In this document: positions 2,625 to 62,032 of the stretch, piece by piece
How positions within the stretch are numbered: the first letter of the stretch is position 1
How the letters are laid out: each line of letters starts with the position of its first letter
Assembly: GCA_030710605.1 (NCBI GenBank)
Contig: CP092870.1
Coordinates: 49,817,061-49,881,060, forward strand
Length of the DNA: 64,000 nt
Reading direction: 5' to 3'
DNA from: Cordylochernes scorpioides
Taxonomy: Eukaryota > Arthropoda > Arachnida > Pseudoscorpiones > Chernetidae
The notes under the pieces: generated by a model
What the model was told of the DNA's origin: nothing
Seen by the model: only the letters and a program-made list of their open reading frames with translations
Databases searched by the model: none
Translations under genes and position numbers: made by a program

Positions 2625-2990
2625 TATATATTAAAAATAAAAAAGACATATCCCGACTGAGCTCACATGAGCATTTTTGATGGCAGAGCGCCATCTAGTG
2701 GAATAAAAATAAACTAAACGTTTATTCAACTTGTTCCATGATATTTGGCCAACCCAATTTCTTGATAAATCAAGAAAAGTCAGACATGAACGCGTTTCGG
2801 GCTCTTGACCCTCGTCAAAGTGGTGCTGACTGTACCTCTACGACCAAAATTTGGTCCCAGAAGCTTCCTGAGAAATCAAGAAATATAAAAATATTAAAAA
2901 CAAAGAAGGCATATCCTGAACAGGAGCACATGTGCTTTTTAGATGGCAGAGCGCTATCTAGTGGAACAGAACGTTGATTTAGCCTGTTCC
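2625..2990 (-). mobile_element. Family B element(s), hammerhead-like core degraded
   Basis: Carries the family-B hallmark GATGGCAGAGCGCCATCTAG twice, so two fused units. The minus-strand core near 2786-2826 reads TTTGACGA, then a GGGTCAAGAGCCC hairpin, GAAA and CGCGTT. It is the family hammerhead with C3 of the core changed to T. Confidence 0.6.
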
Positions 2991-3049
2991 CTCATTTTTT
3001 CTATTATTTTTTCACATATATAAATATGTTATAAAGGACTGCGGCGGGT

Positions 3050-3390
3050 GATTATAAACAATACTTAAAGTTACACCGCATAAGTTTCTTTTCTATGAAA
3101 AATCAATATTTAGTTCAAATAGAAATATTTACTATTTCTAACTTTTTTTTTTAAATGAAGTATGAGAGGGTGAAAATATGAAGAGTAATGGCGAACGGAA
3201 AAATAAAAGTGTCCAGGGGCGGGAATTTTTTATTTTTATAAAGTTTCATATTTTCTCTCTCTCTCTCTCTCTCTCACCCTCTCATACTTCATTTTAAAAA
3301 AAAGTTAGAAATAGTAAATATTTCTCTTTGAAATAAATATTGATTTTTCATAGAAAAGAAACTTATGCAGTGTAACTTTAAGTATTTATA
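3050..3390. mobile_element. Foldback element G (palindromic MITE)
   Basis: Arms of about 110 bp (3060-3170 and 3270-3390) are reverse complements, with sequence such as AAGTTTCTTTTCTATGAAAA. The centre holds TGTCCAGGGGCGGGAA, the reverse complement of the 3' end of the tRNA-like sequence seen in the copy at 5645-6040. Confidence 0.65.
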
Positions 3391-3639
3391 TAAATGTGTA
3401 AATAATATTGAATATTTATATATCCTCATTCCCTCAACATATAGCCATGCCTGTAAAAGGATTATAAAGATCCGAAAGCTTGTACTTTGCACGAATAAAG
3501 ACGCATTGCTACTGGTTATACTCTAATCTCATAGCTACCGAATAGAGAGAGAGAGAGATATGTGATGAAATTACTAATATTGGATGTAGTATTTGTGTGC
3601 TATATGTGTGCATATTTCTATATCCGACCTAATTATAAT

Positions 3640-3765
3640 ATTAACATGACGCTCTAACCAATTGAGCTAACATTAGAGTAGGTAACACCCTCGATTCCCG
3701 ACGGCCATGAACCGGGATTGAATCCCGCGTTAACATTTTGTTTAATATGTGAATAACCTTCATAT
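3640..3765. mobile_element. SINE-like repeat 2
   Basis: Shared with 61235-61345 (ACCCTCGATTCCCGAC...GGCCATGAACCGGGATTG...GCGTTAACATTTTG). It contains box-B-like and box-A-like stretches (TTAGCTCAATTGGTTAGAGC on the minus strand), suggesting tRNA derivation. Confidence 0.45.
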
Positions 3766-4638
3766 ATTATTCATTTTGTAAATATCATAAACTAGGTTGC
3801 TTTTGTTGAGCGGTACCTAATATAGTGATTTTGGAAGAGGATATAATATAAACTTTAGGTTTCATTATTGTTTCGGATTTGAACAACGGAACACACACAC
3901 TATACTGACCAAGCTCTATTATCTCAAGTTGCCTGAGAAGTGTAATTGTTTGGTTTATATATACACGATGAAGTGTATAGGAGCGCCATTATTGCATATT
4001 ACAATATTGTAGCAAAGTATTTATTATTTTATTAACAAAGTATCATTTTTATGTTTTTATTTATAGATTTGGTCTTTTTACCTTGTATTTATAATCTATA
4101 ATCCAAATTGAACCCTATTACGATATACTTTAATAAATAGAAAAATTTAGATTTTTTGATAATTCAATATAAGATTTTTTAAAACTCTATGCGTTACCAA
4201 ATTTTATTTACAGAGGAAATCTATAAAAGTGGATGAAAGATAACAATGTGTTGCCTTTGAATAAAGTGGGTGAAAATCTCAAACAGAGTGTGAATGAGCA
4301 ATGAGGTAGGAGTTTCATAATTTTCTATAGTCTATTATTTTTCATGGTGTTCTGTGATGCTTACTTCTTGATCCATTTGGGTCGTGGAAAGGAAAGTGAA
4401 TTAACATGTCCTTAAGTGCAAGTTGTGTATCTTAAGTGTCTACTCTGCAAACTTCCCTCGTTGCTTATCTTTTGTTGATCATTCATAGTTTGTTCTTGCT
4501 TATAATTGCTGTGTCATCCTGAAGTTTGTCTTTCCTAAGTTTCCACGTGGCAATATGATCAGGTGGAATAGAAAGGAGTGAATTGTATGTTGGGGAAGAC
4601 GTTTTAAGGAATCATCGATAGGGCAATATGCGACATAC
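3766..4638. other. Intronic, no recognised element
   Basis: AT-rich single-copy-looking sequence. No convincing ORF or repeat. Confidence 0.35.
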
Positions 4639-4718
4639 CTGGACGGTCTGCGAGTTGTTGAGGCCCTTGATGGCTTGTAGGGCGCTCTGGCGAGAGGTGA
4701 ACGTCACGAAGGCGCAGC
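4639..4718 (-). CDS. CELF: CELF/Bruno-like exon: C-terminal half of RRM2 (80 nt)
   Basis: Third CELF exon in transcript order, 80 nt, the same length as the conserved CELF exon at this place. Minus strand: acceptor GTGTTCCAG|GC, donor CAG|GTATGT. With the phase-1 G from the previous exon it encodes GCAFVTFTSRQSALQAI, then KGLNNSQTVQ. GCAFVTFT is the RNP1 motif with the RNA-stacking aromatics of an RRM. The family equivalent is GCAFVTFTTRAMAQTAI...QTME. It ends in phase 0 and leads to GCRGPLQVKFADT in the exon at 2318-2467. A GC-rich island in AT-rich intron supports coding constraint. Confidence is high. Confidence 0.93.
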
Positions 4719-5569
4719 CTGGAACACCACCAGCTCACTCTGAGGGAAAATTGATCAAGGATTCGACAATCTTAAAAAAAAAAACAGATGAAAAGGTATG
4801 AACAAACTTGTCCCTTTATCTCTCTCTCTCTCAAATAATAATAAATATATATATGTTGTGTTGTAGTTTATGCTGTAGGATGACTGTAGTGTGGCATGTT
4901 GGTTAGAAGCAGTCGTGGTGGTTGAGTGATGGGTGGTAAGGACACACAGGATCCAGAGGCCCCGTGAGGAAATAGATCGGGGAGGAAATAGAGAAGGTCC
5001 GAGGACCACCATGGGAACAACTGGTGTCGAGACTACCTCGGTGAGAACTGTCCCCTAACAATCACATCCAGCCGCTTTTAAACCGATTTGAGTAAGATAA
5101 ATCCCCTAGGGGAGAGTGAAGACACTTGTTTACCAAGGGGGTTGTTTTACTCTGGCTATCTTCCCTTGTACTCAGGCCATTCTATTGATATATTTCCGAA
5201 TATTATGACACACATATATATTAGAGAGAGAGAGAGAAATTTGCTTAAGGGCAACATATTCATGAGAGAGCTCTCATCATATTTCTCTTTAATGAATACA
5301 AGTACTGTATCCTCTCTGTGAACATACCACCTGTGGAAACTACCATATGAGCGAATGGTAACTAGGCCTGTTTCCTACAATGGGTTGTCATTCTGTCACA
5401 GCGACATTAACAACTGACATTATATATGATGGACGAATAAATGTGGAAAAAATTAAGGCAACTTTACTTTTTTTAAATTAAAAGTTGAGTATCATCCAGT
5501 TTGGATCTAATTTGCTTATAAGTATCTTACTATACTTATTACTAGTATATGTATAGTATATTTATTTAA

Positions 5570-5640
5570 TTGACATATCGGACGCGATATCCCAGCTTGG
5601 GATACTTGCGCCTAAATACATTTTAGCAGCTTATATACTA
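5570..5640. mobile_element. LINE 3' tail fragment
   Basis: GCGATATCCCAGCTTGGGATA then CTTGCGCCTAAATACATT. The same type of tail ends the LINE arms at 51150-51180 and 51780-51830 and the fragment at 29780-29830. Confidence 0.45.
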
Positions 5641-5644
5641 TACT

Positions 5645-6040
5645 AAATATAGTATTTCGTTTAAAAGAAACACATGCGGGATTATTTTCAAATGTCGTTT
5701 TACAATCATAAGCCGCACATAATATTGTATTATAAATTACCTCATATAATATTTACGAACGGAAAAATATGTCCAGGGTAGCCTAGTGGACATGGCATCT
5801 GCCCGGTAAGCGGAACACTGTGGGTTCGATTCCCATCCCTGGACACTTTTATTTTTCCGTTTATCTCTCTCTCTCTCTCTCTCTCATTACTCTTCACAAT
5901 CAATCCTTTCATACTTTATACCTAAGGTTAGAAATAATCGCTGTTTATCCTTTAAATAAATTTCGATTTTTCGTTTAAAAGAAACACATGCGAGATAATT
6001 TTCAAATGTCGTTCTACAATCATAAGCCGCATTATACTAA
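5645..6040. mobile_element. Foldback element G with complete tRNA-like core
   Basis: Arms containing AAAGAAACACATGCGGGAT / reverse complement flank a full tRNA-like sequence (5772-5844) and a (TC)n tract. Other copies (3050-3390, 7455-7790, 60150-60400) keep at most the last part of the tRNA sequence. Confidence 0.6.
5772..5844 (+). tRNA. tRNA-like sequence (SINE head or tRNA pseudogene)
   Basis: It folds as a cloverleaf. Acceptor TCCAGGG/CCCTGGA pairs over 7 bp, followed by TA, a 3-bp D stem (GCC/GGC), an anticodon stem TCTGC/GCGGA and a T arm GTGGG-TTCGATT-CCCAT. Box B (GGTTCGATTCC) is perfect. The anticodon loop CCGGTAA would give anticodon GGT (Thr) but has C instead of the invariant U at position 33. 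It also sits inside a foldback repeat, so I favour a tRNA-derived mobile element over a working tRNA. Confidence 0.55.
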
Positions 6041-6880: not shown

Positions 6881-6889
6881 GTAACGGTT

Positions 6890-7150
6890 TTAAAAAATGG
6901 AAGCATTGAAGTACGGATGTTTTTTAAATGTAAAACAAAAATCTACCGTCCTTACTGCGATGAAAAGTATTGGAAGGGCTTGACTCATCAGTGGTGAACC
7001 CTTCCAGCAGTTTCGCCAATTTAATCTACCAGACCGCTTCTTAGAGTTCTAATAATGTATTGAACGATTCTGCTTATATATGCTGCAATGAAGGGGGGGA
7101 TCTTAGAAATGGTATTCAAGCAAACTATGGACATAAACCTTTATACCGGT
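6890..7150. mobile_element. MITE C fragment
   Basis: Contains TCCTTACTGCGATGAAAA, GGCTTGACTCATCAGTGGTG and the CCAGCAGTTTCGCCAATTTA core shared with about 20 copies in the window. Confidence 0.6.
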
Positions 7151-7939: not shown

Positions 7940-8150
7940 TTATATTATAAAATAAATAAAGCTTCCAGGGTTAAGTTTCTTGTTCAAATTTTTATTTTCA
8001 AGCTTTCGGACTTGTCAGTCCTTCAACAGGATTATCACGATAATAAATTGATGATATATTCTATTTTTATATACAAATTAATTTTTACATTAAACTTACA
8101 AGAAACTTAACCCTGGAAGCTTTATTTATTTTATAATATTATAAATATAT
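7940..8150 (-). mobile_element. Hammerhead-type element N, decayed core
   Basis: Tails AAGCTTCCAGGGTTAAGTTT and their complement lie at both ends. The minus-strand core CTGTTGA (8023-8029), stem II GGAC-TGACAA-GTCC and GAAA (8004-8007) is followed by GCTTGAAAATA. It matches the intact copy at 56798-56823 except A6 to T. Confidence 0.6.
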
Positions 8151-10190: not shown

Positions 10191-10215
10191 TATATGTTGA
10201 CTTTTATATAGTGAG

Positions 10216-10262
10216 ATTGTTTCTGATGAAGACGATTTTTGTCGAAATGTCGAAGAGTGTCT
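10216..10262 (+). ncRNA. Hammerhead ribozyme motif, family M
   Basis: CTGATGA at 10223-10229, stem II GAC...GTC (10231-10243), GAAA at 10244-10247, then UGUC with predicted cleavage after C10251. Flanks pair weakly as stem I (GAA with TTT, then further A-U/G-U pairs). All core nucleotides are canonical. Function is inferred from family knowledge. Confidence 0.6.
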
Positions 10263-12430: not shown

Positions 12431-12950
12431 TATTGATTGCCAGCTGGCTCCAATCAATTCGCCAGGTGGCCCCCTCCAATTACATAAATGGCCTTGATAA
12501 ATAGAAGCCGCAACATGCCATTTGTCATAAATAAACTTTACGGCCAACCTTCCAATAAGGCAAAGAGGCCTTAAAATGCAACCTCTCCAGAAATGGCAGA
12601 GAAATTGGATTTAAACTTGGGATCAACTTCTATTCGGGAATAGAATTCCTGCACGTAGGCGCGCTCCAATTGGGATTCGGGGAGTACCGCCCAAATTTAT
12701 ATCGATGTTGAATCGATGACCGCTGGAAATTATCCTGCAGCCACGTGTCGGGTATGCTGACTCCGTGATGGCCTGGGAGTAATACAGTAATGTGCGGGGA
12801 TAATTTTGAGGCAGAACTAACTTACTATATATTGATGCACCGGATTTGGGAGACTCTTCAGCCTTGATTCTCTCCTACGCTTTGTCTTGCATCTTACCAG
12901 AGCGTGTTTCAACCATCCACACATTTATATAAGTGGAGATAACTCTACTT
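12431..12950. other. Degraded repeat, related to 1140-1640
   Basis: Contains segments resembling the LINE debris near base 1200-1640 (GAATAGAATTCCTG and similar). No frame. Confidence 0.35.
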
Positions 12951-12954
12951 TATA

Positions 12955-13290
12955 TTATGATGCATTAGCGCGCCATCTGTTATCAAAATACGAAGCTATT
13001 TTAGACGCGTATATTTATTTTTAAAAATAAAACAATATTTACTGCTCTTACTGCAATGGAAAAATTAAGGGGGGGGGGGCTGGCTCATCAGTGGTGAACC
13101 CTCCCAGCGGTTTCGTATAACAGTGGTATGGTAGATTAAACTGGCGAAACCGCTGGGAGGGTTCATCACTGATGAGCCAGGCCCTCCCCTTAATTTTTCC
13201 ATTGCAGTAAAGACAGTAGAAATTGTTTAATTTTTAAAAGAATCATACGTGTCTATAATAGTTTCGTATTTTGATAACTCTACTTTAAGT
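12955..13290. mobile_element. MITE C, palindromic full unit
   Basis: Outer arms ATTAGCGCGCCATCTGTTAT..ATTTTAGACGCG and complement. Inner arms GGCTCATCAGTGGTGAACCC / complement around a GTATAACAGTGGTATGG centre. Includes G10 at 13070-13079. Confidence 0.75.
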
Positions 13291-13414: not shown

Positions 13415-13725
13415 AATATTAAAAATAAAGAAGACATACTCTGACTAAAAGAACATGTGCTTTTTACATGGCAGAGCGCCATCTAGTGGAACAGAAATCA
13501 CCTGAACATTGATTTAATCTGTTCTCTGATATTTGGTCAACCCATTTTCTCGATAAATCAAGAAAGGCCATCCTCGAACGAGTTTCGCGCTGTTGGTGCT
13601 CGTCAGCCTGGAGCAGGCTGTACCACTGAGATCAAAGATTTCTTGAGAAACCAATAAATAGGCATTCAAGGCCAAACTTGCGTAAATACGCTTAATACAA
13701 GAGAAAACAATAGAAAAAACAATCA
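13415..13725 (-). mobile_element. Family B element with hammerhead core
   Basis: GGCAGAGCGCCATCTAGTGG at the left. The minus-strand core CTGACGA (13600-13606), stem II GCAC/GCGC (one mismatch) and GAAA (13583-13586) is followed by CTCGTTCGAG. Confidence 0.7.
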
Positions 13726-15860: not shown

Positions 15861-16530
15861 TGTTCCTATGTGTGTGGTCTTCTTTTGTCTTCACGCTAGT
15901 GCGCCTTCACTTCCGGCCCATGACTGCATATTAGATAAGGAGTCCCACTGTGACGTTGTCGGCTCCACTCATTTTACAACATATATATTACTATTTTCCA
16001 ATAACTTTCAGGCTTATATCTTTTTACTTTTTGCAGATAAGTGTAGTTATCAGAATAGAAACATATTAGGGCAAATATACTGGGTTGCATTATTTAAGAT
16101 AAATGAAGTATTAGGTTCATATACATCCATTAGTTTGAGATAGATATACCCTTATTTACTGTGACGACGATGGTGAAACGTAAAAAAAGTCGGCAATCTT
16201 AAATACATTATTAGATGATAAAGCCTTTCAAAATTAATTTAAAATTAGCCATGCGTTTAGGGGTAATTATAGACGAATTGGCTAATTAAATTGGCTCGGT
16301 TCAGATTCGATTTCACTGAGCCCATTTGAATTGTCGCACGGAATTATAAAATATAGAATAATTATATAAAACATTTATATCACATGCATTTTTATCTAAT
16401 GAGAAAATTTCAGATGGAATTAACAGCTAGGCTTTTATCTCGCCATACTACTAGTTTAAAAGATTGAATAAAATACTATTTTATCGAGACAGGCGTATAT
16501 CATATATAAATATTAGATAGTAAAAAGGTA
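15861..16530. other. No recognised element
   Basis: No convincing ORF or shared repeat. Confidence 0.3.
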
Positions 16531-16534
16531 TATA

Positions 16535-16800
16535 TGGGATTGAATAAAATATTTATTTACCAATATTTCGGCTGGCTGAACGCCCCCCAAACTTACATTT
16601 TTGTATTTTAAATGATTTTACAACTTTGTATTTTAAATGATTTCAGCTGTGATATTAAAACACTATGCGGCGCTGAGTTTGTATTTACAAAAATGTAATG
16701 CCTCGATAAAGGTTGGCGTTAGCCAACCGAAATATTGGCAAATAAATCCCTCATTCAATCCAATATATTCCTTTTTACTATCTAATGATTCAAGCATGGA
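16535..16800. mobile_element. Family D element, palindromic
   Basis: AATATTTCGGCTGGCTGAAC on the left, GATAAAGGTTGGCGTTAGCC and CCGAAATATTGGCAAATAAA on the right. Two inverted units around CACTATGCGGCGCTGAG. Confidence 0.65.
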
Positions 16801-16833
16801 TTGCTCTATTTTCAAAATATATAAATATATATA

Positions 16834-17009
16834 CAGTAGAACATCTCTTTAGCAGATACCACGCTAGAGGACACCTCTCTACAAAGGACAGTTTTCACTT
16901 GCAAAATTACCATTTTTACAATTTAGCAACTCTCCGGTAAAGAGGACACCTCTCCATAAAGGACACTTTGGCTCTGTAATTAGATGTCCTTTACAGGGAG
17001 GTTCTACTG
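16834..17009. mobile_element. MITE A, single unit with TA flanks
   Basis: TA-CAGTAGAACATCTCT...GGGAGGTTCTACTG-TA. Inverted ends and a TA duplication fit a pogo-like Tc1/mariner element. Confidence 0.7.
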
Positions 17010-17379
17010 TATATAAATGTTAACATGGTTCTGTCTTTTATTTTTTTTCTCATTTTAATATCTTCAATTCTTCCCTTTATATTCTTATGTTCCGCTTATA
17101 TGACGCGCAACTGCCGAAGCTTCAGCGCGAACTTGTTATAGCCCTTGTTGCTTAAAAAAATAATAAAAAACCTTTTTGATACCTTATGATATTCATTATC
17201 CACTTTCCTTTAACTTTATTTTTTTTTAATTCTTGATCTATTTTAATACATATATATGTGTAAAAGAATAGATATAATATTACTGTTAATTTCTGTACGG
17301 TAATTGCTTGCTATACTGACAACATATTATCAATGCAATATCAATTTATCCCAATAATTAGTTTAATTAGTGTAATATA

Positions 17380-17720
17380 TATATATTAAAAATAAAAATG
17401 GCATATCATGACCAGAAGCACATGTGCTTTTCAGAAAGCAGAGCGCCATCTGGTGGAACAGAAATCAACTAATCATTGATTTAACCAGTTCCCTGATATT
17501 TGGTAACCTGATTTCTTGATAAATTAAGAAAAGCGATCCACAAACGTTTGGCGCTCGTCAGCGTGGAGTAGGCTGTACCACTGCGACCAAAATATTTTTG
17601 GTCCCAGTGGCTTCTTGAGAAACCAAGAAATGGGTATTTAAGGCCAAACTTGCGTAAATACGCTTAACACATGATGTGCCATTTTTATTTTTAATATCAA
17701 CACCTGACCTATTTATTTTT
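17380..17720 (-). mobile_element. Family B element, stem II deleted
   Basis: The minus strand reads CCACGCTGACGAGCGCCAAACG: the core box is kept but the stem-II loop and GAAA are lost. Both family ends are present. Confidence 0.65.
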
Positions 17721-18514: not shown

Positions 18515-20670
18515 CCGGGAAGTAGGGAGAGACCATGTGGCCCACCCTCAGTAGAGGAATACACTGAAGGAAGGAGATATGGAGAGACCATGTGGCCCAC
18601 CCTCAGTAGAGGAATACACTGAAGGAAGGAGATATAGAGAGACCATGTGGCCCACCCTCAGTAGAGGAATACACTGAAGGAAGGAGATATGGAGAGACCA
18701 TGTGGCCCACCCTCAGTAGAGGAATACACTGAAGGAAGGAGATATGGAGAGACCATGTGGCCCACCCTCAGTAGAGGAATACACTGAAGGAAGGAGATAT
18801 AGAGAGACCATGTGGCCCACCCTCAGTAGAGGAATACACTGAAGGAAGGAGATATGGAGAGACCATGTGGCCCACCCTCAGTAGAGGAATACACTGAAGG
18901 AAGGAGATATGGAGAGACCATGTGGCCCACCCTCAGTAGAGGAAGACACTGAAGGAAGGAGATATGGAGAGACCATGTGGCCCACCCTCAGTAGAGGAAT
19001 ACACTGAAGGAAGGAGATATGGAGAGACCATGTGGCCCACCCTCAGTAGAGGAAGACATTGAAGGAGGGAGATGTGGAGAGACCATGTGGTCCACCCTCA
19101 GTAGAGGAAGACATTGAAGGAGGGAGATATGGAGAGACCATGTGGCCCACCCTCAGTAGAGGAATACACTGAAGGAAGGAGATATGGAGAGACCATGTGG
19201 CCCACCCTCAGTAGAGGAATACACTGAAGGAAGGAGATATGGAGAGACCATGTGGCCCACCCTCAGTAGAGGAAGACACTGAAGGAAGGAGATATGGAGA
19301 GACCATGTGGCCCACCCTCAGTAGAGGAATACACTGAAGGAAGGAGATATGGAGAGACCATGTGGCCTACCCTCAGTAGAGGAAGACATTGAAGGAGGGA
19401 GATGTGGAGAGACCATGTGGCCCACCCTCAGTAGAGGAAGACATTGAAGGAGGGAGATATGGAGAGACCATGTGGCCCACCCTCAGTAGAGGAATACACT
19501 GAAGGAAGGAGATATGGAGAGACCATGAGGCCCACCCTCAGTAGAGGAAGACACTGAAGGAAGGAGATATGGAGAGACCATGAGGCCCACCCTCAGTAGA
19601 GGAATACACTGAAGGAAGGAGATATGGAGAGACCATGAGGCCCACCCTCAGTAGAGGAAGACACTGAAGGAAGGAGATATGGAGAGACCATGAGGCCCAC
19701 CCTCAGTAGAGGAAGACACTGAAGGAAGGAGATATCGAGAGACCATGAGGCCCACCCTCAGTAGAGGAATACACTGAAGGAAGGAGATATGGAGAGACCA
19801 TTAGGCCCACCCTCAGTAGAGGAAGACACTGAAGGAAGGAGATATGGAGAGGCCATGAGGCCCACCCTCAGTAGAGGAAGACACTGAAGGAAGGAGATAT
19901 GGAGAGACCATGAGCCCCACCCTCAGTAGAGGAAGACACTGAAGGAGGTAGTTATGGAGAGACCATGTGGCCCACCTCAGTAGAGGGAAGACATTGAAGG
20001 AATGAGATATGGAGAGACCATGAGGCCCACCCTCAGTAGAGGAAGACACTGAAGGAGGGAGATATGGAGAGACCATGTGGCCCACCCTCAATAGATGAAG
20101 ACATTGAAGGAGGGAGATAGGGAGAGACCATGTGGCCCACCCTCAGTAGAGGAAGACACTGAAGGAAGGAGATATGGAGAGACCATGTGGCCCACCCTCA
20201 GTAGAGGAATACACTGAAGGAAGGAGATATGGAGAGACCATGTGGCCCACCCTCAGTAGAGGAATACACTGAAGGAAGGAGATATGGAGAGACCATGTGG
20301 CCCACCCTCAGTAGAGGAAGACACTGAAGGAAGGAGATATGGAGAGACCATGTGGCCCACCCTCAGTAGAGGAATACACTGAAGGAAGGAGATATGGAGA
20401 GACCATGTGGCCCACCCTCAGTAGAGGAAGACATTGAAGGAGGGAGATGTGGAGAGACCATGTGGCCCACCCTCAGTAGAGGAAGACATTAAAGGAGGGA
20501 GATATGGAGAGACCATGAGGCCCACCCTCAGTAGAGGAAGACACTGAAGGAGGGAGATATGGAGAGACCATGTGGCCCACCCTCAATAGATGAAGACATT
20601 GAAGGAGGGAGATAGGGAGAGACCATGTGGCCCACCCTCAGTAGAGGAAGACACTGAAGGAGGGAGATAT
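18515..20670. repeat. 55-bp minisatellite, about 39 copies
   Basis: Unit GGAGAGACCATGTGGCCCAC / CCTCAGTAGAGGAATACACT / GAAGGAAGGAGATAT. Variants (GAATACACT/GAAGACACT/GAAGACATT; TGTGG/TGAGG) alternate in blocks, suggesting higher-order amplification. The array continues at 22968-23353 after an inserted retroelement. Confidence 0.97.
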
Positions 20671-22967: not shown

Positions 22968-23353
22968 TATAAAGGAGGGAGATATGGAGAGACCATGTGG
23001 CCCACCCTCAGTAGAGGAAGACATTGAAGGAGGGAGATATGGAGAGACCATGTGGCCCACCCTCAGTAGAGAAAGACATTGAAGGAGGGAGATATGGAGA
23101 GACCATGTGGCCCACCCTCAGTAGAGGAAGATATTGAAGGAGGGAGATATGAAGAAACCAAGTGGCCTACCCTCATTAGAGGAAGACACTGAAGGAAGGA
23201 GATATGAAGAAACCAAGTGGCCTACCCTCAATAGAGGAAAACACTGAAGGAGGGAGATATGGAGAGACCATGTGGCCCACCCTCAATAGAGGAAGACACT
23301 GAAGGAGGGAGATATGGAGAGACCATGTGGCCCACCCTCAATAGAGGAAGACA
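22968..23353. repeat. 55-bp minisatellite, right block
   Basis: About seven more units, more diverged (GAAGAAACCAAGTGGCCTAC). Continuous with 18515-20670 before insertion. Confidence 0.95.
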
Positions 23354-23379
23354 TGCTTAAGGAATATTCATTACATATC

Positions 23380-40680: not shown

Positions 40681-40684
40681 ATAA

Positions 40685-41835: not shown

Positions 41836-41874
41836 CAACTAATAATAATAAAAACAGTAATAATAATTATCACA

Positions 41875-42455
41875 AAGCAATAACGCTCCATCTATATATA
41901 ATTAATGAAGACATTAAGACTCGAATGTTTATTTTTCACAAATAAATCAAACTTCTACTGTCCTTACTGCGATGATAAAATATTGGGAGGGTTTGGCTTA
42001 TCAGTGGTGAACCTTCCCAGCAGTTTCGTCAATTTTTAATCTACCAGACCGCTTCTTTAGATCTCTAATACTGTATTGGATCATTCTGTTTATATATGTT
42101 ACACTGAAGGGTGTAATCCTAGAAATGGTATTTAAGTAAACTATGGACATAAGCTTTTAGGACAGTAGAATTACATTTAAATATTTACATCGAGAAATGC
42201 TCTTCATCAAACAATAAGGATAAGTTAGGTAAAACTAATTCAAAGCAATAACATGCCATCTATATATAACAAATGAAGACATTAAGATGTTAATGTTTCT
42301 TTTCACAAATAAATTCTACTGTCCTTACTGCGATGAACCAAGCCCTCCCAATATTTATTCATCGTAGTAAGGACAGTAGAAGTTTGATTTATTTGTGAGA
42401 AGAAACATTCGCATCCTAGTGTCTTCATTCGTTATATATAGATGGCGCGTTATTG
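41875..42455. mobile_element. MITE C, two units
   Basis: AATAACGCTCCATCTATATA and AATAACATGCCATCTATATA starts. The second unit is palindromic, ending in GATGGCGCGTTATTGCTTTG. Confidence 0.7.
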
Positions 42456-42480: not shown

Positions 42481-43204
42481 TGTGATGTAATTGTACAAAA
42501 GTGTAATTGTACAAAAGTGAAATAGTACAAAAGTAAAATTGTACAAAAGTAAAATTGTACAAAAGTGTAATTGTACAAAAGTGTAATTGTACAAAAGTGT
42601 AATTGTACAAAAGTAAAATTGTACAAAAGTGAAAATTGTACAAAAGTGAAAATTGTACAAAAGTGAAAATTGTACAAAAGTGAAAATTGTACAAAAGTGA
42701 AAATTGTACAAAAGTGAAAATTGTACAAAAGTGAAAATTGTACAAAAGTGAAATAGTACAAAAGTAAAATTGTACAAAAGTAAAATTGTACAAAAGTGAA
42801 ATAGTACAAAAGTGTAATTGTACAAAAGTGTAATTGTACAAAAGTGTAATTGTACAAAAGTGAAATAGTACAAAAGTAAAATTGTACAAAAGTAAAATTG
42901 TACAAAAGTGTAATTGTACAAAAGTGTAATTGTACAAAAGTGAAATAGTACAAAAGTAAAATTGTACAAAAGTGTAATTGTACAAAAGTAAAATTGTACA
43001 AAAGTGTAATTGTACAAAAGTGTAATTGTACAAAAGTGTAATTGTACAAAAGTGAAATAGTACAAAAGTGTAATTGTACAAAAGTGTAATTGTACAAAAG
43101 TGTAATTGTACAAAAGTGAAATAGTACAAAAGTAAAATTGTACAAAAGTAAAATTGTACAAAAGTAAAATTGTACAAAAGTGAAATAGTACAAAGGTAAA
43201 ATTG
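42481..43204. repeat. 16-bp satellite grown from an LTR start
   Basis: About 45 units of GTACAAAAGTGTAATT and variants (TAAAATT, GAAAATT, GAAATA). The first unit is preceded by TGTGATGTAATTGTACA, identical to the start of the LTR at 43602. All three minus frames stay open because the unit has no stop on that strand; these are not genes. Confidence 0.93.
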
Positions 43205-43601
43205 TGGTTCCTGTGGGATTCCTTTGAAGGTGCGGAGTGACAATTCGGATCACTATGGCAAATCAAAGGAAGCTTGTTCTGCTCCCTCTATAATAGGTGT
43301 TGTGAATGCTATTGATGAGAAGGAGTAAAGGATTCTGAAGCGAAGCCAAAGGGCGACGGATTAAAGGATTCTGATGCGAAGCCTAAGGGCGCAGGAGTAC
43401 GAGAACTGCCTCCATTGGAAGTAAAGGATCAAGTTTGGCTGACGGACCTTAACGGGGAGCCATATGTGAATTGCCCGGAGGCCAACCCACACACTTCGGA
43501 TGCTGCTGCGGATGTGGCCGGATCATCAACATCTCCTGGAAGAACAGTTCGTCCGCCCAGACGTTTTGGAGAGGACTAGAGCTAATCTCTAAGAGGGGAG
43601 A
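43205..43601 (+). pseudogene. Gypsy-like pol C-terminal remnant
   Basis: Encodes LPPLEVKDQVWLTDLNGEPY...TVRPPRRFGED-stop. A basic PPRRF tail and a VKDQVWL-type strand are usual at the end of gypsy integrases. It stops just before a purine-rich AAGAGGGGAGA tract and the LTR start. RT, RNase H and the integrase core are absent. Confidence 0.55.
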
Positions 43602-45439: not shown

Positions 45440-45620
45440 ATCATAATAAGGCACAATTTGGATTATAGATTATAAACACAAGGTAATAAGACCAAATCCA
45501 AATAAATAAATAGTGTGTGACGTTTTGGTAACAGCGTTGTTACCATCTTCAGACAAACGCTGTTACCGAAACGTCACACACTATTTATTTATTTGGTCTT
45601 ATTACCTTGTGTTTAAAAAA
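45440..45620. mobile_element. Family L elements, palindromic, decayed
   Basis: The minus core CTGAAGA, GGTAACA..TGTTACC, AAAA for GAAA, CGTC. A plus half-copy follows directly (CGCTGTTACCGAAACGTCAC). Confidence 0.65.
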
Positions 45621-45923: not shown

Positions 45924-46980
45924 ATGATACATTAGCGCGACATCTGTTATGAAAATTCGAAACTATTATAGACGCGTATGTTTTTTTTTTAAATAAACAA
46001 TTTCTACTGCCCTTACTGCAATGGAAAAATTAATTGGAGGGCTTGGCTCATCAGTGGGGAACCCTCCCAGCGGTTTAGCCAGTTTAATCTACCATATAGC
46101 TGTTATATTGCATTTTTCGATCTTCCTTTTATATTGATACTGTTGATAAACTTTTGGGACGGGTATTTTAGATGAATTAAGAGCTTTGAGGACCGCAGAA
46201 TTACATACAAATATAAATATATAATATGCTTCGAGCAATCGCTCTTGGTGAACCAGGCCCTCCCATTTAATTTCCATTGCAGTAGAAATTGTTTTATTTA
46301 TTTTTTATAAATATAAAGCAATAACGCGCCATTTATATACAGTAAATGAAGACATTAAGACGCGAATGTTTCTTTCACAAATAAACTTCTACTGTCCTTA
46401 CTGCGATGAAAAATATTGGGAGGGCTTGGTTGATCAGTAGTGAACCCTCCCAGCAGTTTCACCAATTCAATCTACCAGACCGCTTCTTTAGATCTCTAAT
46501 ACTGTACTGGATCATTCTGCTTTTATATGTTACACTGAAGGGTGGAATCTCAGAAATCGCATTTAAGCAAACTATGGACATAAAACACTCGCGTCTTAAT
46601 GTTTTCATTTGTTATATATATAAGACGTGTTATTTCTTTATATTAATTTATGCCAAACTGGCCTTGTCCTTATTGCTTGAGGAAGAGATTTTTTCGATTC
46701 AAATATTTATACGTAATTTTGATGTCACAAAAGCTTATGTCCATAGTTTGCTTGAATACCATTTACAAGAGTCCACCATTCAGTGTAGCATATAAAAGCA
46801 GAATGATTCAATACAGTATTAGAGCTCTAAAGAAGCGGTCTGGTAGATTAAATTGACGAAACCGCTGAGAGGATTCACTACTGACAAGCCAAGCACTTCC
46901 TATATTTTTTCATCGCAATAAAGACATTAGAAATTCGATTTATTTGTGAAAGAAACATTCGCGTCATAATGTCTTTATTT
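45920..46980. mobile_element. MITE C cluster, at least three units
   Basis: ATTAGCGCGACATCTGTTAT (45930), AATAACGCGCCATTTATATA (46320), and a longer form at 46600-46980 containing AACTGGCCTTGTCCTTATTG and GTCCATAGTTTGCTTGAATA. That internal part recurs at 53935-54060 and 55990-56110. Confidence 0.7.
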
Positions 46981-48589: not shown

Positions 48590-48960
48590 ATGATTTCTGC
48601 TGTTGACTTTGGAATATTATTTTCTAATTATTTTTTGGATACATTGGTATGATTATGATATTGTTTTGCAGTCGTGGGGAATAATTAAATAGTTTTGATC
48701 AGAGATTGCTTTAATTGAACTAAAGGAATATATAAAAAACATAATTTGATAAAAGTACTGTGGATTAAGGCGTAAGAAAAAAGAAATGAAAACTTATTTA
48801 CATAATGTACAAAAGGTTTGAGCCGGCCATCGGGAAACAACAACAATGAGTTTTTATAGGGGAAGCATGACCTCTTGCAGTCGATTTAACAGAGTATTTG
48901 AATCTATGAAATATAATTTTAAATAAAATAATATTTTAATATAACATACATATCTGCATA
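48590..48960 (-). mobile_element. Family E repeat, minus
   Basis: GTTTGAGCCGGCCATCGGGA and CTTGCAGTCGATTTAACAGA. Confidence 0.58.
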
Positions 48961-48970
48961 TTAACATATA

Positions 48971-49106
48971 CAGTAGAACCTCCCTTTAGCGGACACCTCT
49001 CTGCAAAGGACAGTTTTAATTTACAAAATTATCTTTTTTACTATTTAGCAACTCTCCTGTAAGAGGACCCCTCTCCCTAAAGGACACTTTGACCCTGCAA
49101 TTAGGT
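48971..49106. mobile_element. MITE A, right end missing
   Basis: TA-CAGTAGAACCTCCCTTTAGC; broken off after GCAATTAGGTG. Confidence 0.6.
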
Positions 49107-49900
49107 GTTATCCAAACGATAACATATTTTTCAAATAAAATGTCAAATATATTTATTGATCAATAAAATAACGCCTTGTATATCAATATTGAGGCGATAA
49201 AATTCAGGCTTGCGGAAATATGAATTTCTATAAAAACATTTTAACATTTGTGAATTAAGATATGAAAATATAAAATTATTCCCGGATAGCCTGATATTTT
49301 CGCCTTAATATGATTTTATAATTGAAGACAATAAAAAACACTAGGTAAAACATACAAAACCTCAAATTTACATATCGGATTTTGTGCTTCTCAATATGAT
49401 ATTCAGTATTTCAATATTCATCCTCTGATTTACTGCTCTGTTGTCAAGTTATATTGACAAACATTAGCACTTTTATCTCAATATTTAGCGGGAAGAATGT
49501 TGTTTGTTAAGTGAACCAATATCTCACGTCTTCTCATTGGACGAATGTGGCCATGTTTGTATATAAGAGAGGGCTAAGGGAATGTGAGGGATATTGTGGT
49601 GGATTATTGTGTGGAGAAGCTTAAAGCATTCTCTAAGTCCGTGTCTGGTGATCTCCTCACATACCTGTGTAACCCCGATCCGATCCCTACCAACACTACA
49701 ATAAAAGTACTGTTTTGTTTTTATAACAAATCGTGGATTTTTATTTATTTCCCTTTTATTGTTGTTGTTGTACTCTTGAGTGTACGCTTTTCTCTCTCTC
49801 TCTCTCTCTCTCTCTATGTGTACAAATTATTATTACTTTCAGGCCCTAGTAAATTGCACATTGTGTGTTAACCCGTAAAAGCAACATTAGTCACTGTAAT
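49107..49900 (+). mobile_element. Possible LTR-like or promoter-bearing insertion
   Basis: It interrupts MITE A at 49106. It contains TTTGTATATAAGAGAGGGC (49556-49574), a TATA box in context, then TACAATAAAAGTACTG (about 49697), a polyadenylation signal, the order of an LTR. A (CT)n tract is at 49793-49815. Boundaries are not clear. Confidence 0.3.
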
Positions 49901-52840: not shown

Positions 52841-52864
52841 ATGTACAGGTTTTGAAAATAAAGC

Positions 52865-53460
52865 AATCCATAAATAGATGCTTAATTAAAATACATATAT
52901 TGGATCAAAATATAATTTATATACCAAAATTTCAGTTATCTTGAAGATAGACGTTACCTTGCCGGCATTCATATTTCTATGATAAATAGACACTTCGGCC
53001 AGTTAGAGTTTTATTTTCTCAACGTTTCGACAAAATTCTTTTGTCTCCGTCAGGAGTAATAAAAATAAAGTATTTGGCGAAGGGTTAAAAATTTCAGTTG
53101 GCTGAACGCCAACCTTTTTCAAGGTATTATAACATATTTAATTAATACCTTGAAAAAGGTTGGCGTTCAGCCAACTAAAATATTGGTAAATGAATTATAT
53201 TTGATCCAAAATATGCTTTTTTATTTAAAGATTTATTTATGGATTGCTCCATTTTCAAAACAGTTAAATGTAATATTTACTTATATGTCAACAACTAACT
53301 CAGCGCCGCATAAATTGTTATACCTTGAAAAAGGTTGCGTTCAGCCAACTTAATATTGGAAAATTAATTATATTTGATCCAATATTTATGCCTTTTCATA
53401 TAAAGATTTATTTATGGATTGTTCTATTTTCAAAACAGTTAAATGTAATATTTACTGATT
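52865..53460. mobile_element. Family D cluster plus a family M remnant
   Basis: CAACCTTTTTCAAGGTATTA and complements at 53100 and 53150, and a third unit at about 53320. The M remnant at 53000-53060 has minus-strand CTGACGGAGAC...GTCGAAACGTTG (one inserted base in the core). Confidence 0.6.
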
Positions 53461-55129: not shown

Positions 55130-55535
55130 AATATTTAATTAAAAATACATATATTGGATCAAAATATCATTTATTTTACCAATATTTCATTTGGCTGAAC
55201 GCCAACCTTTATCAAGGTATTATAACATATTAATGTGTGTCAACAACAAACTCAGAGTCACATAACGTCAATTACATCATAACTTAAATTATGTGACGCT
55301 GAGTTTGTTGTTGACATACATTAATATGTTATAATATTTAGATAAAGTATGGCGTTCAGCCAACTGAAATATTGGTAAAATAAATTATATTTTGATCCAA
55401 TATATGCCTTTTTAGTTGAATATTTTTTAAAAGACTGCTCTATTTAAGCGTTCAGCCAACTGAAATATTGGTAAAATAAATATTTTGATCCAATATATGC
55501 CTTTTTAGTTGAATATTTTTTTATGGACTGCTCTA
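55130..55535. mobile_element. Family D, palindromic cluster
   Basis: TTATCAAGGTATTATAACAT and inverted partner around CAGAGTCACATAACGTCAAT. A duplicated right end follows (GCGTTCAGCCAACTGAAATA twice). Confidence 0.65.
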
Positions 55536-55539
55536 TTTA

Positions 55540-55735
55540 AGCTTGTGTTAAAATGTAAATATACAAATTCATCCATATATAAAGATTGTACAAAAATAAA
55601 CGTGGCAGACATCGAATGCTACGGCACGTCGCTGCTCACTTGGGTTGAACTAATTCTTGTGGATTGTAAGTATAATGGTTGTACCCTTCCATTCGATCAC
55701 GACATGTATGTATTTAATTTTCTATACAACTTCGG
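55540..55735. repeat. Repeat shared with 50805-50985
   Basis: AAAATAAACGTGGCAGACAT, GCTACGGCACGTCGC, CCTTCCATTCGATCACGACA. Class unknown. Confidence 0.55.
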
Positions 55736-55924
55736 TCCAATAATTCCATGAACTTTCATACTGAACAACAAAAGAATAAAGATTAATATGATTCAAATAA
55801 ATTAATATTTTGCAAGACATTTGCGTGGCACAAAGATATATTTATACAAAGTTCTAAAATACTATTCGATTTCTAGACCACAAAATATTAGTACAAATAA
55901 ACTGTTATTGAATCATGAAAAATA

Positions 55925-56370
55925 TAAGGAACTTGCGTATTTAAATGTTTTCCATTATTATAAATAGATGTGCGTTATTGTCCTATAATTGATTTATGCC
56001 TAACTGGCCTTGTACTTATTGTTTGCGGAAGAGCATTGTTCGATGTAAATGTTTATATGTAATTCTAATGTCCTAAAACTTTATGTCTATAGTTTACTTA
56101 AATACCTTTTCTACATACCATATTCCACACTTCAGTGTAACATATATAAACAGAATGATCCAATACAGTATTAGAGCTCTATAAAAGCAGTCTGGTAGAT
56201 TAAATTGGCGAAACCGAAGGTTCACCACTGAAGAACCAAGCCCTTCCAATATAATGTTCATCGCAGTAAGGACAGTAGAAGTTTGTTTTTATGTTTATAA
56301 GAAACTTTCGTTTTTAAATGTTTTCCTTTATTATATATAGATGACTCGTTATTGCTCTATAATTAATATG
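55925..56370. mobile_element. MITE C, long palindromic form
   Basis: AACTGGCCTTGTACTTATTG ... AAGTTTGTTTTTATG, with inverted outer ends (ATAAATAGATGTGCGTTATT / ATAGATGACTCGTTATTGCT). Confidence 0.65.
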
Positions 56371-56384
56371 TATCTGTGTCCAAT

Positions 56385-56590
56385 ATTTCTATAAACCTTT
56401 TGACCACATATATTCGTGGATGGCTTTTCTTGATTCATCAAGAAATTGGGTTGGCCAAACATCACGGAGCAAGTTAAATAAACGTTTAGTTTATTTTTGC
56501 TCCACTAGATGGCGCTCTGCCATCTAAAAAAGCACATGTACTCGTGGCCAGGAGATGCCTTCTTTATTTTTAATATATTTGTTCATAAAC
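56385..56590 (+). mobile_element. Family B, tail half only
   Basis: TCGTGGATGGCTTTTCTTGA to GATGGCGCTCTGCCATCTAA; the ribozyme core is truncated away. Confidence 0.55.
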
Positions 56591-56739
56591 AAATATCTAT
56601 TAAAGACAGAACTTGTTGAATTCTTGAAAAATAGTGCTATAAACATGAATTTGCTCTAAAGAAGTAATATTTAAAACATTATTGTTAGCATAAAGTGAAA
56701 TAGGTGTATAAAACCGTATTATAATAGGTGATGTATAAT

Positions 56740-56850
56740 ATAAAATAAATAAAGCTTCCAGGGCTAAGTTTCTTGTACAAACCTTTTATTTTCAAGCTTT
56801 CGGACTTGTCAGTCCTTCATCAGGAGTATCACGTTGATAAATATATGATG
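56740..56850 (-). mobile_element. Family N hammerhead element
   Basis: Tail AATAAAGCTTCCAGGGCTAA then the ribozyme; related to 7940-8150. Confidence 0.65.
56786..56830 (-). ncRNA. Hammerhead ribozyme motif, family N (canonical core)
   Basis: Minus: CTGATGA (56817-56823), stem II GGAC-TGACAA-GTCC (56802-56815), GAAA (56798-56801), then GCUU: A-GC-U is self-complementary and cleavage is predicted after the second U. Stem I is weak (GA with TC). Confidence 0.68.
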
Positions 56851-57060
56851 TATATGTTATATAAAATATTATTTTATATTTTAAAATTATAAATTCTAGA
56901 ACAAACTACTCTGTAAAGTCGACCGCCAGATGTCGCGGCTTTCCCTATATAAACCTATTGTTGTTGTTTCCTGTTGGCCGGCTCTTTCTGTAGATATGTA
57001 AATACAGTTATTTTATTGATTCTTCACGCCTTAAGTCAGATATATAAACCCATTTCCAAA
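56850..57060 (+). mobile_element. Family E repeat
   Basis: CGACCGCCAGATGTCGCGGC and CCTGTTGGCCGGCTC. Confidence 0.55.
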
Positions 57061-59569: not shown

Positions 59570-59700
59570 ATTATGGGTTGGCCAAATATCACGGAAGAAG
59601 TAAATGAACGTTTAGTTTATTTTTGTTCCACTAGATGGCGCTCTGCCATCTAGAAATGGTCATGTAAGTGGGTCAGGAAATGCCAATTTTGTTTTTAATA
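59570..59700 (+). mobile_element. Family B, tail half
   Basis: GGGTTGGCCAAATATCACGG to TGGCGCTCTGCCATCTAGAA. Confidence 0.55.
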
Positions 59701-59799
59701 CCAAACCTTTTTTATTTTATAATATTTTTTTAAGGAAAATTATAGAAAATTCCGATGTTGATTTAAGAGAATAATTGCGAATTGAGAGTATAATGTCAG

Positions 59800-60405: not shown

Positions 60406-60870
60406 AATAAATAAACTAGTTAAAATAGAGTGAGTATATTCAAACCCACACCTCCATATCTACAATATCCATATATGCATATTAAAAGACCATAGTATAA
60501 CTCCCATTAGAAGATTGCCGTTCCATTTTGGCCAAAGATAGTAAGTATATAAGCTAGTAAAAAGAACAAAATTCTCCGTGGGTAAGTGTCAGTTTATTAT
60601 GTGAATACAAACCCACACAGAAACATGGCCTGAATATTAAAAAGGCTCTCTATCTCCACGAAATGCATGAGATTGACACTCGTTAGGTCATTTCTCCAAG
60701 TATTTGGTGATAATGGAAAGACAATTTTAAAATATGCTTACTCTTAATATCTATATATCATCTTATAGACAGAAAATATTGGCAATTATAATGTTAAAGT
60801 CATCATTAAAACAATAATTAAATTCTGTTTTCATGTAAAATTAATGAAACATTTAAAATGTTATAAATAC
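60406..60870. other. No recognised element
   Basis: Nothing supported. Confidence 0.3.
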
Positions 60871-60874
60871 AAAT

Positions 60875-61135
60875 ACAATGTGCCATCTATATATAACGAA
60901 TGAAGACTCGAATGTTTCTTTTTCACGAATAAATCAAACTTCTACTGTCCTTACTGTCCTTGGGAGGGTTTGGTTTATCAGTGGTGAACCTTCCCAGCAA
61001 TTTCGTCAATTCAATCTACCAGACCGCTTCTTTAGAGCTCTAATACTGTATTGGATCATTTTCACCGCAGTAAGGACAGTAGAAATTTGATATATTTGTG
61101 AAAAGAAACATTCGCATCTTAATGTCTTTTTTCGT
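60875..61135. mobile_element. MITE C
   Basis: TGTGCCATCTATATATAACG; CTTCCCAGCAATTTCGTCAA; GCAGTAAGGACAGTAGAAAT. Confidence 0.65.
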
Positions 61136-61234
61136 TATTTAAAATGTTTATTAGAAAAGGTCGTTTTATTCATTTACAAATATAATCTAGAATAAATTAG
61201 GAATTTGATTAATCTAGATAAGAGGTCTGAGGAC

Positions 61235-61345
61235 CAGTGGGTAACACCCTCGATTCCCGACAGCCATGAACCGGGATTGGACCCCGCGTTAACATTTTGT
61301 TTAATATGTGAATAACCTTCACATATATTATTCATTGTTCTGAAA
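61235..61345. mobile_element. SINE-like repeat 2 copy
   Basis: Same as 3640-3765 (GGTAACACCCTCGATTCCCG). Confidence 0.45.
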
Positions 61346-61354
61346 ATAGAGCAA

Positions 61355-61525
61355 TCCATTCTTAACGCTAACCTTCATCGAGGCATTACATTTTTGTATA
61401 CACAATTTTGTATGCGGGGCTGAGTTTTTGTATAAAAAAAGGTAATGCCTCGATAAAGGTTGGCGTTCAGCCAGCCGAAATATTGGCAAATAAATATTTC
61501 ATTCAATCCAATATATACTATCTAT
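61355..61525. mobile_element. Family D, palindromic
   Basis: AACCTTCATCGAGGCATTAC and complement GTAATGCCTCGATAAAGGTT. Confidence 0.62.
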
Positions 61526-61920
61526 AATTACCATTGTTGTAAATATCAAGGGCTTTGATAAGAATCATATTCCAAATATTTCTTGATCTGTTTTTTGTTC
61601 AAGAATACAAGAAAATATGTTGTAAGAGACCATTGGTAGACGCGATGAAACCCCAAGACATTTTTACTCGACTATTGTACCGGCCGTTTATTTAAGATGA
61701 TATTTATTCCGATAGATGGCGCAAATCTTCAGCAACTTTAAGTTGCACGATGAGGAGATGCCATTTTCATAATATATGATTATTAATCACAAAATAACCA
61801 TTTAAAATGACTTATTCCCAAAAGTAAACGAAAATCCGCTAACCCTCATTGTCTGAGATTGAGCGTACCAATTTTAAATAACCGATAATCTAGGGGCTCA
61901 TTAGTAAAGTTAGAAAACAC
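61526..61920. other. Mostly unrecognised
   Basis: 61690-61765 is a family-B end (CCGATAGATGGCGCAAATCT, TTGCACGATGAGGAGATGCC). Confidence 0.4.
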
Positions 61921-61989
61921 AAGTTCTTATTCCAAAGACCATTTGTTGGCTGGATTCAGATAAAACACATCAACCTATGGTTTATTTAA

Positions 61990-62032
61990 CCACCGACGTT
62001 TCAGTGACTTCCTGTCATTCTCTTCAGTGGAA
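61990..62032 (-). ncRNA. Hammerhead ribozyme motif (separate family)
   Basis: Minus: CTGAAGA (62021-62027), stem II hairpin AATGAC..GTCACT (imperfect), GAAA (61999-62002), CGTC with predicted cleavage after C at 61995, then GGTGG, which can pair with CCAC upstream. Core boxes canonical; stem II has a mismatch. Confidence 0.58.

Follow-up and report, generated by a model that had tools for sequence, protein, structure and literature searches.

We analyzed a 64,000-nucleotide stretch of the genome of the pseudoscorpion Cordylochernes scorpioides (GenBank assembly GCA_030710605.1, contig CP092870.1, positions 49,817,061 to 49,881,060 of the forward strand; hereafter the window, with coordinates counted from its first letter) and found that it carries hammerhead motifs that are real and occur beyond chance. 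The best-supported interpretation is that these sites are small type-I hammerheads with a self-complementary stem III of 2–3 bp, located in the end regions of Penelope-type insertions. The short repeat families that carry them look like Penelope-type insertions and not like DNA transposons, and we consider it probable (roughly 0.6) that the small units are insertions of this type, moved in trans by Penelope machinery. The Penelope-type features found are a minimal type-I hammerhead in the end region, a one-sided tail of ~30–40 nt, and, in AT-rich DNA, target duplications that vary in length. Most hammerhead carriers are units of ~110–400 bp in which no Penelope coding sequence was found. The sequence evidence comes from the 64-kb window alone, read together with published work.

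Hammerhead motifs exceed shuffled expectation

To detect hammerheads, we used a descriptor that follows the order stem I, CUGANGA, stem II, GAAA, stem III, UH, and stem I, with at least 3 bp in each of stems I and II, against a background of 200 local dinucleotide shuffles. Exact cores (CUGANGA plus GAAA) were present at four sites (10223+, 28050-, 28893+, and 39901+), compared with a shuffle mean of 0.005, bearing out the order of box, stem II, GAAA, self-complementary stem III, and UH given in a preliminary description of this DNA. Allowing up to one core mismatch gave seven sites (0.375 in shuffles), and allowing up to two gave 16 (4.39 in shuffles); with up to two mismatches and a palindromic stem III, 14 sites stood against 1.44 (shuffle maximum 7), one of them (45275-) outside the hammerhead families. 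A structure-first descriptor, written post hoc once the families were known, required a Watson-Crick 3-8 pair, a stem II of at least 4 bp, an exact GAAA, a palindromic stem III, and a stem I of at least 3 bp; it returned 14 sites against 0.065, with a maximum of one in 400 shuffles, and two of the 14 (25126- and 56417-) lay outside the hammerhead families.

A covariance model trained on four sites (28893 in family A, 39901 in family B, 28050 in family C, and 10223) and run on the window with filters off returned 45 matches with E no higher than 10; 24 of them had E <0.5, all E-values being rough. Twenty-two of these 24 fell in named families, and the other two were the singletons 10223 (a training site) and 62027. 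Among held-out matches, 62027- reached E 0.0014, family E 0.11–0.48, both P copies 0.29, and family D a weaker 1.3. Homology to family references gave 43 rows, from which we dropped eight inverted or broken arms (16591-, 26646-, 28159+, 28192-, 39874-, 40779-, 45550+, and 61381-) and two weak rows (52960- and 60889+) and to which we added 17561- and 62027-. The final count is 35 positions: nine in family A, two in B, four in C, three in D, 10 in E, two in F, three in P, and the singletons 10223+ and 62027-. The earlier estimate (about 20 sites, six families or more) was thus right but an undercount, as there are seven families and two singletons.

CUGANGA and GAAA are both kept at nine of the 35 positions (13606, 28893, 39632, 41088, 28050, 39901, 10223, 56823, and 62027), and the consensus of each of families B, C, D, E, F, and P contains the motif with no more than two mismatches in the core. 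At gathering thresholds, Rfam recovered none of the window's hammerheads; its best hammerhead match was HH9 at 28877–28942, with 26.1 bits against a threshold of 52. RNA cofolding of the hammerheads gave dimer energies that did not discriminate.

Families E and P have altered cores common to their copies

The best hammerhead, at 28883–28932 (+), combines a CCACG/CGUGG stem I, CUGAUGA, a GGGC/GCCC stem II, GAAA, ACGCGU, and C17. It belongs to a family A unit at 28826–29089 (+), supported by the motif scan, the covariance model, and the Rfam HH9 match at 26.1 bits. In clean examples, stem III is self-complementary and reads ACGU, ACGCGU, AGCU, or AUAU. The family A copy at 31913, in which ACGCGU has become ACAUGU, was considered as a compensatory change; we did not count it as selection because it amounts to two CpG-type transitions.

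The box is altered in all 10 family E positions, all three P positions, both F positions, and two of the three in D. Every family E box has U3 and A8, and four of the 10 read exactly UUGAUAA; because both positions have changed (C-G to U-A), the 3-8 pair is still Watson-Crick. A U3-A8 pair is probably tolerated in hammerheads. One dropped family E arm (61381-) has U3 with G8. P cores read CCGUAGA twice and GCGUAGA once, F cores CUGUGGA and CUGUAAA, and two of the three D copies CUGUUGA, so that P, F, and these two D copies have U at position 6 in place of the canonical A. Both the F copy at 3451 and the P-like site at 26626 have a broken 3-8 pair.

Since the core alterations of E recur among its copies, as do those of P, they are not simply the product of single-copy decay, and they suggest that cleavage may be dispensable in family E and in the Penelope copy P. 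The preliminary description had placed self-cleavage in the life cycle of these elements; that proposal is weakened because several copies each of E and P carry altered cores, and cleavage was unnecessary for insertion of a lizard Penelope in vitro, according to passages of PMC11167929.

A Penelope-like copy shares its tail with a short family

Among the window's elements, only P carries an open reading frame (ORF) with a putative GIY-YIG domain. Its right arm (38795–39533, +; identified by ORF, Pfam, and motif) is a 5'-truncated Penelope-like copy, in which the GIY-YIG ORF (38737–39282) is followed by a region resembling a pseudo-long terminal repeat (pLTR), a hammerhead-like motif at 39404–39453 (CCGUAGA) that lies ~130 nt beyond the ORF, and a tail of ~75–90 nt. 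The left arm (38014–38823, -) contains the ORF in inverted orientation, with 38121–38585 100% complementary to 38795–39259 (465 nt). A left pLTR-like region with a hammerhead-like motif (35915–35964) and tail lies at 35834–36153 (-) and is 91% identical to 39213–39533. We also found by homology a palindromic P-related element at 26577–26695, with the box GCGUAGA at 26626 (+) and a left arm that begins at GAAA. An AlphaFold model of the P fragment was unusable (mean predicted local distance difference test score, pLDDT, 35.6). Adjoining the P right arm, at ~39540–39570, is a CAGGGGTCGGCAAACT-like end that presumably resembles a hAT transposon terminus.

The D tail matches the P tail over 71 nt at 76% identity (E 2.8e-10). 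The C and E tails show a weak match (33 nt, 76%, E 0.001). Family D comprises three copies found by homology: a two-armed locus, D1 (7940–8139), with a hammerhead-like box at 8029 (-) and a tail of ~40 nt inverted at its other end; a copy at 35622–35778 (+), with a hammerhead-like box at 35683, adjoining the left end of P; and a copy at 56731–56892 (-), which has a canonical CUGAUGA core at 56823 and is joined to a repeat of family H. The proposed link to Penelope machinery is supported by this tail, shared between D and the GIY-YIG copy, and by the one-sided extra tails and target duplications described below.

Most two-armed units carry one long and one short tail

Families E, B, and C include units built of two arms placed head to head. 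In family E, homology identified E1 (16514–16816), with a hammerhead-like motif at 16693–16746 (+) and a long tail on the right arm only; E2 (32205–32501; also motif scan), with hammerhead-like motifs at 32251–32304 (-) and 32384–32438 (+); E3 (40659–40872; also motif scan), with one at 40779–40833 (+) and a left arm broken at loop II; a complex locus, E4 (52858–53427), with boxes at 53122 (-), 53150 (+), and 53325 (+); E5 (55135–55545), with a partial tandem on the right and boxes at 55215 (-) and 55339 (+); and the two-armed E6 (61340–61531; also structure-first scan), with a box at 61450 (+). The two-armed B locus, B1 (39788–40024, right end set by eye), has a full hammerhead at 39891–39943 (+) and a left arm broken at loop II; a second B copy (52928–53094, -; homology and covariance model), with a hammerhead at 53011–53063, adjoins family E copies. 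Family C forms a cluster, C1 (27534–28240; homology), with hammerheads at 27593–27646, 27896–27949, and 28007–28060, all (-), two of them 111 nt apart, and an inverted arm at 28156–28240 (+), as well as a two-armed unit, C2 (45446–45613; homology and duplication test), with a hammerhead at 45509–45562 (-).

Across 24 neighbor pairs, in which family A is represented by 14 arms, 14 were head-to-head, two tail-to-tail, and eight on the same strand. As the D pair 7940/8098 was double-counted and the E pair 39647/39698 is weak, 12 head-to-head pairs are unique and firm; both tail-to-tail counts come from one mixed D/P pair. Control families, whose orientation is arbitrary, gave 12 -/+, 24 +/-, and eight same-strand pairs.

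A one-sided tail extension was present, relative to shuffle controls, in eight of nine scored two-armed loci (E1, E2, E3, E5, E6, B1, C1, and C2), the query tails having been taken from E1, B1, and C2, where the positive arm is the query itself. In C1 the long-tail side is the tandem cluster, and in E5 both right-hand pieces have the long tail; the family A locus A28, P, and the element at 26577–26695 were left out of the scoring. Bounded by target duplications, the difference between long and short tails is 32 nt in E1, ~35 nt in E3, 33 nt in E5, ~28 nt in C2, and 25 nt in E2, or about 25–36 nt. Family A has a comparable pattern at its 3' ends, which form two clusters ~35 nt apart (seven and four of 11 long matches); at the 5' side, four of the 11 start further in, and the other seven are limited by the query. 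E2 must be reversed for a center common to E1 and E2 to appear, and their long tails then lie at opposite ends; left unreversed, the two align with a higher overall score, through the tails (254/350 versus 246/375 identical columns). Either tail choice was made at each insertion or the center was flipped by recombination.

We looked for target duplications at 13 loci whose boundaries had been placed by eye. The best four are 12 bp and exact in E1 (P 0.004), 17 bp with one mismatch in E5 (P 0.004), 13 bp with one mismatch in C2 (P 0.006), and 12 bp with one mismatch in E3 (P 0.014); they lack one fixed length, and three of them (12, 12, and 17 bp) are within family E. In B1, C2, and E3, the inverted arm is interrupted in or close to stem-loop II, and in the element spanning 26577–26695 it is interrupted at GAAA. 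These breaks fit a reverse transcriptase that halts at the hairpin of stem II on RNA that has not been cleaved, a reading that agrees with the finding, in passages of PMC11167929, that hammerhead mutants did not affect insertion in vitro.

Several results weigh against attributing the units to Penelope machinery. The GIY-YIG domains of the P arms score 22.5 and 22.2 bits in Pfam, just under the cut-off of 22.6 (E 1.4e-4 and 1.7e-4). Pfam found no reverse transcriptase in 18 of the 20 stop-to-stop ORFs of at least 110 aa, the two left out being both frames of a 16-bp tandem repeat, and a search of ORFs of at least 40 aa for YxDD gave two contexts, neither like a reverse transcriptase. Because no reverse transcriptase was found, no element in the window can be called an autonomous Penelope. 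Outside P itself, the best match to the P protein in the window has E 0.29, and the tail common to P and D had no match better than E 0.04 in A, B, C, E, or F. Every scored arm of E4 has a long tail, and D1 has no difference between long and short tails. Target duplications are weaker in E2 (9 bp in an AT run, 0.014), D1 (P 0.028), and E6 (a possible duplication of 7 bp, 0.059), and none that is convincing was found at six of the 13 tested loci (B1, A28, P, A56, A31, and A25). The hammerhead-free families I, I2, and G are also palindromic, so head-to-head layout alone is non-diagnostic, and we dropped it as proof.

A proposed route of insertion and its alternatives

Under the reading we favor, the small units would probably be moved in trans by a Penelope reverse transcriptase/GIY-YIG endonuclease. 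A transcript with a hammerhead and a downstream tail would be bound by the Penelope protein, and both strands of an AT-rich target would be cut. Reverse transcription would begin inside the tail, at what we infer to be a choice between two places ~25–36 nt apart, and would often end early, leaving 5' truncation, which in several copies falls at stem-loop II. Extension of both target strands would yield two truncated copies in head-to-head orientation, their tails facing outward, together with a short duplication of the target.

More tentatively, the window may hold a guild of mini-Penelopes that are truly non-autonomous and live as parasites of Penelope machinery. In some members of this guild, the hammerhead fold would act as a recognition handle for the reverse transcriptase and not as a cutter, and the two-tailed palindromes of family E would themselves be mobile, with their ends set at inner and outer reverse transcriptase start sites at each insertion. 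The recognition-handle reading would cover family E, through its swapped 3-8 pair (C-G to U-A), and the P, F, and D group, through U at position 6. The preliminary description of the units as non-autonomous parasites is accordingly plausible and stops short of proof, as 5'-truncated copies of full-length Penelopes outside the window fit too.

That alternative, the main rival, is possible, if unlikely. The units would then be terminal pieces, either solo or 5'-truncated pLTRs, of several full-length Penelope families that lie elsewhere in the genome and each have a hammerhead of their own. Passages of PMC3846280 report both truncated copies and solo pLTRs among rotifer Penelopes; P is itself truncated and without its reverse transcriptase part, and D matches only the end region of P. 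End fragments are harder to reconcile with the lack of P-protein similarity near any A copy (best match outside P, again E 0.29), with the several A copies that begin, by eye, in the same neighborhood, and with the common center of E1 and E2, in which no ORF match was found.

Copying through small circular RNAs, produced by double hammerhead cleavage and ligation as in retrozymes, is very improbable. The C units 111 nt apart, one partial A tandem, and the tandem pieces in E4 and E5 speak for such a cycle, and Penelopes/Terminons have been proposed as helpers of animal retrozymes (passages of PMC7761336). Against this, same-strand neighbors account for eight of the 24 pairs and head-to-head neighbors for 14, stem III is minimal, unlike that of a canonical retrozyme hammerhead, and the cores of E and P are altered. 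A single A copy (56413–56576, +; found by homology, with position set by hand) has its 5' end within 2 nt of the predicted cleavage site and is without a complete hammerhead; as a sign of cleavage, this coincidence is not significant by rough estimate. The involvement of circular RNA, also raised in the preliminary description, is unsupported, the sole hint in the window being the tandem pieces in C, one A locus, and E4/E5.

Less likely still are DNA transposons or miniature inverted-repeat transposable elements with terminal inverted repeats, in which hammerhead-like hairpins would be accidental. E, B, C, and D do have inverted ends, and palindromic repeats without hammerheads (I, I2, and G) share the window; DNA transposons are nonetheless disfavored because the target duplications (12, 12, 13, and 17 bp at best) lack one fixed length, and the extra tail on one side, the 5'-truncated copies and clustered 3' ends of family A, the match of D ends to the end of the GIY-YIG element, and the motif excess over shuffles all count against them. 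The variable duplication lengths and clear motif excess run counter to the case that the preliminary description had set out as its refutation, namely DNA transposons with terminal inverted repeats and motifs within shuffled expectation. Chance matches to a short consensus, for which the altered box or GAAA at 26 of the 35 positions might speak, are refuted by the motif excess over shuffle controls in both the exact-core and structure-first scans and by the family consensus sequences that carry the motif.

Remaining carriers and other features of the window

Family A has further copies on both strands. The head-to-head partner of the unit with the best hammerhead lies at 28557–28800 (-; homology and covariance model), with a hammerhead at 28694–28743. 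Homology and the covariance model also identified a partial tandem pair (2618–2884 and 2891–2999) at 2618–2999 (-), with a hammerhead at 2779–2828; copies at 17383–17631 (-; box at 17561, stem II partly lost), 25378–25641 (-; box at 25576), 31843–32101 (+; box at 31913), and 41024–41277 (+; hammerhead at 41078–41127); and a fragment at 39585–39648 (-; hammerhead at 39593–39642). Two more copies rest on homology: 13416–13636 (-; box at 13606) and 59574–59709 (+), which is 5'-truncated and without a hammerhead. CCACTAGATGGCGC is repeated in family A copies, around 2680–2700 and at 13.4, 56.5, and 59.7 kb, and we take it to be close to the CTCF binding consensus; if it is a CTCF-like site, several family A copies would spread such sites through the region.

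The two family F copies, found by the motif scan and homology, are at 2525–2630 (-; hammerhead-like box CUGUGGA at 2596) and 3417–3520 (+; hammerhead-like box CUGUAAA at 3451). The former adjoins, just upstream of a likely splice acceptor, a GC-rich exon-like stretch at ~2330–2480 (-) that reads PLQVKFADTPQEKEQKKRQQ; we assume this exon to be CELF/Bruno-like, an identity that is not confirmed, and its peptide had no match in PDB and one non-significant match in Pfam. The placement of the elements within a single intron, as given in the preliminary description, is therefore only putative. The singletons lie at 10213–10261 (+; exact core, from the motif scan and covariance model) and 61985–62037 (-; outside the training set, covariance model E 0.0014).

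The window consists of eukaryotic-looking DNA dense with short nested repeats, with a GC content of ~31–38% in 4-kb steps except for a GC-rich block at 20–24 kb. In this block, a GC-rich ORF (20787–23117, -) of 776 codons is gag-like by appearance, with a weak zinc-finger match, and is flanked by two blocks of one and the same 55-bp tandem repeat (18526–20671 and 22972–23354), one of which extends into it. The large palindromic repeat family I/I2 (6887–7143, 12923–13283, 30858–31156, 41844–42301, 46295–46980, 55924–56395, and others) has a recurrent CTGATGA (CUGAUGA) in a hairpin; GAAA is absent at the expected place, and we rejected it as a hammerhead look-alike. Other repeats include an 85-bp tandem repeat (62385–63072) with scattered copies (854–1109, 16807–17011, and 48886–49113), whose ends (TACAGTAGAACCTC) presumably resemble transposon termini, and a 16-bp tandem repeat (42489–43205, ~44 copies) that is open in three minus-strand frames.

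Across the whole window, Rfam at gathering thresholds found only a tRNA, at 5772–5844 (+; 53.4 bits), in repeat-rich surroundings that leave either a gene or a tRNA-derived repeat possible. A Twister-P1-like match at 26899–26953 (+) reached 38.3 bits, short of the gathering score of 67.2 (E 8.5e-5 for the window and 3e-6 for 2.3 kb); its GUCCCAAGCC core is matched, and several outer pairs are broken. In the collections searched, which were viral and prokaryotic, the P protein had no relatives by tblastn among viral contigs, the family A core as an exact pattern had no match among viral or prokaryotic contigs, and the family E core had none among viral contigs.

Comparison with known systems

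Penelope hammerheads, dispersed minimal hammerheads, head-to-head copies, the tail, and action in trans are already in print. In titles and abstract openings of the open-licence literature, we found no earlier report of small carriers that form several families and have altered cores. According to passages of PMC7761336 and PMC6155905, Penelope hammerheads are minimal, with most of helix III absent, and possibly act as dimers; the minimal type-I hammerheads of Penelopes share with the window's motifs little or no stem III, a location in the end region, and wide dispersal in non-coding animal DNA. Compared with those of Cervera and de la Pena 2014 and Lunse et al. 2017 (as described in citing passages of PMC7761336 and, for the first, PMC11167929), most carriers here are short units, single or two-armed, that lack a match to Penelope coding sequence, and the cores of E and P are altered. 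Thousands of minimal hammerheads occur in many metazoan genomes, mostly dispersed and non-coding, and their activity and role in Penelopes/Terminons "are still a mystery" in the words of one passage (PMC7761336). If minimal hammerheads are the ends of small Penelope-dependent elements, their spread would be explained, and multi-copy families with altered cores would permit a direct test of whether the motif serves cutting or recognition.

The metazoan non-LTR (long terminal repeat) retrozymes described in passages of PMC7229834 are likewise small non-coding elements with type-I hammerheads; those are tandem, with canonical hammerheads and demonstrated circular RNAs, whereas here tandem arrangement is limited to C, one A locus, and parts of E4 and E5, and stem III is minimal. 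Closer to the window's elements is the Poseidon PAc element of Anolis, which, like P with its putative GIY-YIG domain, combines a GIY-YIG protein with a hammerhead near the pLTR/ORF junction (passages of PMC11167929). In this lizard Penelope, two adjacent internal start sites for reverse transcription bound the tail, both strands are cut and extended, and targets are AT-rich. PAc is a full-length element with biochemical activity, and its hammerhead needed added protein to cut RNA, whereas our reading is drawn from sequence.

Penelopes of the rotifer Adineta vaga have inverted pLTRs, head-to-head junctions, and an optional 31-bp tail on one pLTR, with target duplications of 8–10 bp or none and pLTR sequences that act in trans (passages of PMC3846280). 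The copies described there mainly have ORFs, whereas the window is dominated by short units that lack a coding match; its best target duplications, at 12–17 bp, are also longer. The one-sided tail found here corresponds to the Penelope signature published for A. vaga in the same passages, and the pattern of one long and one short tail provides a usable footprint of Penelope insertion on both strands.

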